From assembly GCA_001790315.1 (NCBI GenBank), contig MGCE01000030.1, positions 2,585-34,722 on the forward strand: DNA of 32,138 nt, given 5' to 3'. The position numbers and the translations under genes were made by a program. Positions 15,451-19,985 of this stretch are shown here, piece after piece (position 1 is the first letter of the stretch; every line of letters begins with the position of its first letter). The DNA comes from Candidatus Rokubacteria bacterium RIFCSPLOWO2_02_FULL_72_37 (lineage in GTDB: Bacteria > Methylomirabilota > Methylomirabilia > Rokubacteriales > CSP1-6). A model generated the notes under the pieces. That model saw only the letters and a list, made by a program, of their open reading frames with translations, had not been told where the DNA came from and did no database searches.

Positions 15451-15464
<14 letters not shown>
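14733..15464 (-). CDS. pyrF: Orotidine 5'-phosphate decarboxylase
   Basis: [53 protein letters not shown]. Confidence 0.95.
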
Positions 15465-18657
<3,193 letters not shown>

Positions 18658-18668
18658 GGGCGGCTCCC

Positions 18669-18794
18669 GGCGGGGCGGGGCGGCGGGCCCCGCTCGACCA
18701 CGCGCGCGGCGACGCTCTGGGTGACGTAGGGCGCGCGCCGGCTCCGGAGACCCTGACAACACGGGTCTCGCGGGGCCCGCCGCCCCGCCCCGCC
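18669..18794 (-). repeat. Inverted-repeat element between EamA and carB: 25-bp perfect arms enclosing an internal hairpin
   Basis: Arms GGCGGGGCGGGGCGGCGGGCCCCGC at 18669-18693 and its exact complement at 18770-18794; inner 7-bp pair GAGACCC (18747-18753)/GGGTCTC (18763-18769). Sits immediately upstream of the carB SD and start. Confidence 0.8.
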
Positions 18795-18831
18795 CGGGCC
18801 CGCCACGCCAGCTCTGGTCCGCGGGCCTGCG

Positions 18832-19704
18832 TCAGGCGGCCGAGTTCACGACGTGGATGCCGCCCGCGACGGCCAGCGCGCCCGCCACCTGCAAGAGCGA
18901 GAGCGGCTCGCCGAGGAGCGCCCAGCCGATCAGCACGCCGAAGACCGGCGAGAGGAACACGAAGGCGTTGACGCGGACCGCGGAGTAGCTCCGGATCAGC
19001 CAGTTGAAGACGGCGAACGAGAACGCGGCGGCCACGGCACCGAGGTAGAGCACGCTCCCGACGGCGAGCGGACTGAGCCGCCAGGGCGCGTCGGGCTCGA
19101 GCATCAGCGTCAGGACACCCATGACGGGCATCGCCACCGCGGCGCTCCACAGGATGACCGAGGCCGAGTGGACCTCGCGCGGCATGGTCTTGACCAGGAT
19201 CGTGGCCGCCGACCAGCCGAGCGTCCCCAGCAACACGAACGCGTCGCCCACGAGCGACGCCTGGCCGGGGAGGCGGTCGGCGAACACCAGTACGATGCCC
19301 GTGAACGCGAGCACCGTCCCACCGAGCCGTCGCGTCGTGAGCCGCTCGGCCGGCACGAAGAGCGGCAGCAGCAGGAGCGTGAAGAAGGGCTGCGTGTTGA
19401 ACAGGATCGACGCGCGCCCCGCCGTCGTGCGGGCGGCGCCGAGGTAGAAGAGCGCCATCGTCCAGCAGAAGGCCGCGCCGCCGGCCAGGAGGAAGCGCCG
19501 CGCCCGGCGCCCGTAGACAACGGGGACGCCCGCCAGCCGCGAGTACAGGAACAGCAGCGCGCTCGCGACGACCACCCGCAGGAAGAGCGAGCCGAAGACC
19601 GGCAGGTCGCGGAACCCGAGCTTCACCATCGTGTACGATCCGCCCCAGATCGCCGTGAGGAGCACGACGAGCGCGATCGCCCGCGCGGGCAGCCGGTCGG
19701 GCAC
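18832..19704 (-). CDS. EamA/DMT-family transporter
   Basis: Start GTG 19704: VPDRLPARAIALVVLLTAIWGGSYTMVKLGFRDLPVFGSLFLRVVV; WTMALFYLGAARTTAGRASILFNTQPFFTLLL; GVLIGWALLGEPLSLLQVAGALAVAGGI. Confidence 0.92.
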   Translation of the reverse strand: MPDRLPARAIALVVLLTAIWGGSYTMVKLGFRDLPVFGSLFLRVVVASALLFLYSRLAGVPVVYGRRARRFLLAGGAAFCWTMALFYLGAARTTAGRASILFNTQPFFTLLLLPLFVPAERLTTRRLGGTVLAFTGIVLVFADRLPGQASLVGDAFVLLGTLGWSAATILVKTMPREVHSASVILWSAAVAMPVMGVLTLMLEPDAPWRLSPLAVGSVLYLGAVAAAFSFAVFNWLIRSYSAVRVNAFVFLSPVFGVLIGWALLGEPLSLLQVAGALAVAGGIHVVNSAA

Positions 19705-19718
19705 CGATCGGGCTCGTC

Positions 19719-19985
19719 CTATTCCTCGACCAGTCCATACACGATCGAGGTCTCGGGGGCGGCTTCCTCGCGGCGGTAGAGGACGTCGTCGAGCCGCCCG
19801 CTGCCGATCCACGCGGCCTCGCCGCTGCCCCAGAGCGTCTCGCCGAGGACGCTCATACGCCGGTCGACGCGCTCGCGGACGGCGTGAGCCTCGAGCGAGG
19901 TGTCGCTCTGCGTGGTGAACGAGGTCCACTCGGGCTTCTGGCCCGAACCCTCCGTCTTCCGGTACGAGATCAGGTACTTGGGCAT
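19719..19985 (-). CDS. Hypothetical 88-aa protein within the pyr operon
   Basis: MPKYLISYRKTEGSGQKPEWTSFTTQSDTSLEAHAVRERVDRRMSVLGETLWGSGEAAWIGSGRLDDVLYRREEAAPETSIVYGLVEE; begins 9 nt after carA, co-directional. Confidence 0.7.
   Translation of the reverse strand: MPKYLISYRKTEGSGQKPEWTSFTTQSDTSLEAHAVRERVDRRMSVLGETLWGSGEAAWIGSGRLDDVLYRREEAAPETSIVYGLVEE

Follow-up and report, generated by a model that had tools for sequence, protein, structure and literature searches.

Hairpin upstream of carB

A perfect inverted repeat stands directly before carB in the window, the whole 32,138-nucleotide stretch of DNA analyzed here from Candidatus Rokubacteria bacterium RIFCSPLOWO2_02_FULL_72_37, and raises the question of whether it regulates that gene or is a repeat that happens to lie there. 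An earlier note on this DNA had offered both a multibranch regulatory RNA specific to carB and a MITE-like or palindromic repeat. The arms that it described (18669-18693 and 18770-18794) match each other as reverse complements at 25 of 25 positions and enclose a core of 76 nt; extended without gaps, they reach 18659-18699 and 18764-18804 at 88%. By our own estimate, a perfect 25-bp match within 200 nt is expected by chance about 1e-5 times per such window, and this hairpin (18669-18794) is the sole inverted repeat in the 32 kb with a net score of 18 pairs or more. The enclosed hairpin was also found as described, GAGACCC-TGACAACAC-GGGTCTC lying at 18747-18769 on the + strand (the version given earlier is that of the carB strand), as were the GTG start and GGGAG ribosome-binding site of carB.

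Read on the carB (-) strand, the element begins with its 5' arm (18770-18794, with an imperfect extension to 18804), followed by core box 1, GAGACCCGU (18761-18769), an inner core (18703-18760), core box 2, CGUGGUCGA (18694-18702), and the 3' arm (18669-18693), which complements the 5' arm perfectly over 25 bp and extends imperfectly to 18659. CG-U-GGUC of box 2 pairs with GACCCG of box 1, leaving the U bulged and GA opposite GA. The inner core of this copy holds a copy-specific GGGUCUC, the partner of GAGACCC. The predicted fold of the - strand has an energy of -124.4 kcal/mol compared to -94.3 +/- 4.7 for shuffles (z = -6.4). Downstream on the - strand lies carB (15451-18657, start at 18657, CPSase_L domains), whose ribosome-binding site (18668-18664, - strand) falls within the imperfect base of the hairpin. 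The upstream neighbor is a gene for an EamA transporter (18832-19704, - strand), and an 88-aa ORF, MPKYLISYRKTEG... (19719-19985, - strand), with no Pfam match, also lies between carA and carB.

No U-tract terminator was seen at the hairpin and no target duplication was visible around it, the latter as already remarked. A consensus scan, of little weight in this phylum, gave no promoter at this copy, and Rfam gave no covariance model match above the gathering score. We assign a probability of roughly 65% to the reading that this hairpin is a member of an old palindromic repeat family, derived from a mobile element and conserved in its single-strand fold, that is situated at gene 3' ends and is incidental at carB.

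A dispersed repeat family in Rokubacteria

BLASTN against the source genome and three congeners, a check that had been proposed with the two readings, brought up further copies that have mainly the core ends in common. A covariance model built from 19 copies gave matches at E <= 0.001 in 14 of 40 relatives and, with a cutoff of E <= 1e-5, in 30 of 60 genomes from the order. The genomes that carry it belong without exception to one GTDB family, in which a genus mostly has the element throughout or not at all (11 of 27 genera have it). Bearing genomes hold at least 1 to 22 copies each, and the source genome, which is 71% complete, has at least 8; the genome search scored top candidates only, so these counts may be too low.

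A pattern scan of genome contigs (84,980 species) found good complementary arms, among the matches listed, only in Ca. Rokuibacteriota. Candidate members outside this phylum were rejected, the listed pattern matches having no complementary arms (the best, a Planctomycetota record, had net 6 pairs), and the same scan of IMG/VR gave no match with good complementary arms (best, net 5 pairs). As far as searched, the repeat is confined to a single family of soil bacteria within Rokubacteria. No Rfam family matches, and the literature searched held no paper describing such a repeat; it is apparently undescribed so far. In one genome (G020, contig C96), five copies follow one another head to tail every 136 bp (L166:2431-3088).

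Fixed core and covarying arms

The aligned copies follow one plan on the carB strand: a variable arm, GA, GACCCG, about 60 nt, CG-U-GGUC, GA and the complementary arm, with the whole element measuring about 126-180 bp. The 2 core boxes are near-invariant and asymmetric (GA-GACCCG ... CG-U-GGUC-GA) in 92 model matches. The arms are typically 20-40 bp, differ in sequence between copies and are complementary within each. Most cores are 74-80 nt long, and 87-90-nt and 30-nt types also occur; the inner core varies in sequence while its length is nearly fixed, and the core types have no conserved inner helix in common.

In the 92 matches, 97.2% of cells were paired compared to 74.6% when shuffled and 43-49% for slid structures, although the alignment was fitted to the model and these pairing figures lean towards it. 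Double changes numbered 299, versus 70 in shuffles, and changes on both sides were seen in all 12 of the modeled arm pairs and in 3 of the 6 pairs of the core. A model-independent comparison over 24 positions found the arms of a copy to be 87% complementary to each other and swapped arms 50%, with a mean identity of 52% among the 5' arms of different copies.

The possibility that the core inserted into ordinary hairpins already present was considered and rejected, since 393 kb of flanks contain practically no comparable hairpins lacking a core (one weak case and one divergent core variant) and there are none at the empty sites. Copy L121, the outer arms of which resemble another repeat, is a partial exception.

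Several variants of the core were noted. A divergent type of 83-87 nt, GAGACCCGTTCCC...CTCGTGGTCGA (L213, L233, L241, L247, L253, L285 and L149:4648-4899), is probably under-detected by the model. The short type has 30 nt between the arms, keeps both core boxes (L106:2221-2274, L123:2501-2554 and L163:2501-2554) and is the minimal form. L376 (G041, site C) has about 35 extra nt between GCGTGGT and the arm, and its arms are still paired over 49 bp.

Shared positions, empty sites and inverted cores

Some positions are common to genera. The rubrerythrin site is filled in five genomes of three genera and the gspF-gspG site in four genomes, and further shared positions exist. Sites A and B of G020 are also filled in its congener G040 (B in G041 as well), and the related genera G018 and G021 do not have these copies; G021 has a gap of 12 bp at site A and is free of any intergenic insert at site B. 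Dispersal together with these empty sites argues for transposition. The two flanks of L122 have their matches on different G001 contigs, which left no clean empty site to define for this copy.

Orthologous copies have kept their core boxes, and their arms have changed yet mostly remain paired. At old orthologous sites, the inner core drifts while the boxes stay near-invariant. In 6 of 13 orthologous groups, the core has the opposite orientation in at least one genome. The inverted cores of L097 and L157 are 78% identical, which 0.04% of non-orthologous pairs attain, and those of L094 and L101 are 72% identical, which 0.8% attain. Since these clearest cases are far closer to their ortholog than unrelated copies are, in-place inversion appears likelier than replacement by another copy. 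The weaker inverted cores (about 65% or less), larB-larC above all, may be replacements by another copy.

Placement at gene 3' ends and strand of the fold

Gene calls came from a simple codon score, and about a dozen copies that appear inside predicted ORFs were excluded from the counts. Across the family, copies stand at the 3' ends of genes: 22 are flanked by convergent genes, 44 by codirectional genes and 3 by divergent genes. The convergent excess compared to other gene pairs was significant (p = 6e-7); the divergent deficit had p = 4e-6 among gaps of at least 100 bp and p = 0.12 against all pairs. Codirectional copies were divided into 23 sense and 25 antisense under a slightly looser gene call. 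Copies occur in either orientation relative to their neighbors, and the neighboring genes are unrelated from copy to copy.

On the GAGACC strand, arm mismatches comprised 84 G-T and 45 A-C (p = 8e-4; 36:12 per copy) in a test that takes sites as independent although the copies are related. The ratio was 37:12 at arm positions 13-24, which are outside the modeled pairs, and 20:5 in antisense-placed copies. Because the bias is present in antisense-placed copies, it does not follow neighboring transcription, and a function in the sense of the neighboring mRNA was rejected on this ground. The bias points to a folded GAGACC strand, which could be RNA or single-stranded DNA.

In the reading that we favor, the family would have dispersed as a small non-autonomous mobile element. 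Once a copy was in place, the pairing of its arms would have been maintained partly by selection for the GAGACC-strand fold and partly by copying between the palindrome arms, which could also invert the core. To judge from its position at gene 3' ends, the hairpin now most likely serves either to protect or process transcript ends or as a structured single-strand site for a protein. A bolder version is put forward tentatively, as something we would not expect to hold in full: a new class of bacterial dispersed element, in which a fixed asymmetric core sits on copy-specific self-complementary arms, is recognized as the folded GAGACC strand, can invert in place and is kept by selection at the 3' ends of genes in different genera, the arms being generated or re-written after insertion and not copied with the element. 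Fixed cores with changing yet paired arms, orthologous across several genera, offer a natural system for palindrome upkeep, and open to study the question of whether palindromes are kept perfect by folded-strand selection or by arm-to-arm copying.

Alternative explanations and known elements

The strong covariation, the asymmetric conserved core, the strand-specific wobble bias and the positions kept across genera would also suit a class of structured non-coding RNA, multi-copy and not mobile, with its own promoter or in 3' UTRs. We consider this unlikely, however, given the many copies, the gains at sites that are empty in related genera, the tandem array in G020 and the orientation independent of neighbors; the promoter scan at the carB copy counts against it only weakly.

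A MITE is defined by a shared terminal repeat and target duplication. Being small, non-coding, multi-copy, dispersed, mostly intergenic and missing from some orthologous sites, the Rokubacteria repeat bears out in kind the MITE-like or palindromic reading of the earlier note. However, the arms are unrelated and covary where a MITE would have terminal inverted repeats common to its copies (a shared outer repeat is found only in L121/L122), and what the copies do share is the core, which the note had not singled out. No target duplication was found in the flanks or at sites A-C, where no site pair is close enough to decide, and no unit ends common to the family were found. ERIC (about 127 bp) and Correia elements are small, non-coding, dispersed palindromes, mostly intergenic and in transcribed regions, for which 3'-end placements and RNase-dependent effects on mRNA have been reported (PMC10969869, PMC2759123). 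The Rokubacteria repeat is like them in size, dispersal and location but differs in sharing a core in place of terminal repeats. That it is a decaying, functionless MITE, with pairing kept solely by template switching between palindrome arms, is a poor prospect. Arms that change fast but together, core inversions and partial tandem copies fit such palindrome-driven copying. At old orthologous sites, in contrast, the core boxes stay almost unchanged as the inner part drifts, and since the boxes are not repeated within a copy, arm-to-arm correction of them is impossible; the strand-specific wobble bias also speaks against decay.

REPs are extragenic palindromes of 20-40 bp with covarying stem residues, G-T pairs in the stems and an unpaired GTAG or CGTC tag, often with a Y1 transposase in the genome (PMC3733652). 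The Rokubacteria repeat is likewise an extragenic palindrome with a covarying stem and G-T pairs; unlike REPs and REPINs, it measures about 126-180 bp, and the copies have no GTAG, CGTC or other common tag at the hairpin base. The search for a mobilizing enzyme covered Y1 transposases and the L121 outer repeat. A Y1 transposase (PF01797) was missing from the bearers tested except G012, which has one marginal copy, and RAYT mobilization was therefore rejected. The repeat resembles MITEs and REPs but departs from each in defining features.

Integron attC sites are read as a folded single strand, are conserved more in shape than in sequence and have their boxes at the base. A recombination site of this kind, or like IS200/IS605-type ends, would account for structure conserved while sequence varies, for the one strand favored, for the bulged base in the core helix and for the inversions. 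We hold it to be improbable, as the conserved boxes are at the inner arm ends, unlike the attC base, the copies are dispersed at unrelated loci with no cassette arrays seen, and a Y1 transposase is missing from nearly all bearers.

The hairpins share with intrinsic terminators a GC-rich stem, a position close behind stop codons and enrichment between convergent genes. They differ in having the conserved 76-nt core and in lying also between genes of operon-like arrangement, for example gspF and gspG. A canonical intrinsic terminator was rejected because TTTT beside an arm was seen in 0 of 89 copies and the carB copy has no U-tract.

The recent pair L121/L122 in G002 has cores about 95% identical, framed by CTAGCCTGGATYGTTCACGAGCGA repeats. 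As these repeats also occur elsewhere without the core, another repeat probably carried the pair along when it moved. Ends of CTAGCC.GGATTATTCATGARCGA mark a second dispersed family of inverted repeats, which occurs with or without the hairpin core inside (L121:377-620, L122:2433, L399:1426-1524 and L400:1501-1715) and is probably a separate MITE family.

carB junctions in related genomes

We compared 20 carB loci from 19 family genomes. The element stands before carB in the source genome (G000) alone and is missing there in the 18 others, so the conserved structure at orthologous junctions that the regulatory reading had called for was not found. Control of carB, separately from carA, by a leader RNA or riboswitch had been suggested by adjacency on the same strand and a stable fold over the ribosome-binding site. 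As a conserved device it is refuted by this comparison and by the dispersed copies, an outcome that the note had named as refuting it; these copies adjoin unrelated genes, about half of the codirectional ones in antisense. This reading is highly improbable, although the copy may have an effect on carB in the source organism alone. The supposed carB regulator is thereby removed and replaced by a repeat family, and annotators are warned to treat GC-rich intergenic hairpins of this kind in Rokubacteria as repeats, not gene-specific riboswitches.

In most family genomes, carB is directly preceded by a small ORF, either a conserved one or another, and in the source genome the EamA gene and the element are interposed between the small ORF and carB. 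Close EamA homologs are absent from the three congeners, indicating that the EamA gene was gained in the source lineage. Under the mobile-derived repeat reading, the carB copy would have entered this lineage together with the EamA gene or beside it, and its overlap with the ribosome-binding site would be only incidental. A repeat traveling specifically with EamA was rejected; the only homolog found, in G008, is on a contig with no model match. In most of the family genomes examined, the 88-aa ORF immediately precedes carB, and it is a conserved small protein. In the three congeners (G002, G001 and G003; L328, L329 and L332), a different small ORF, MWFD.DEEADVLYVSFERPQG..., which we take to resemble DUF2283, stands directly before carB, indicating that this junction gained genes more than once.
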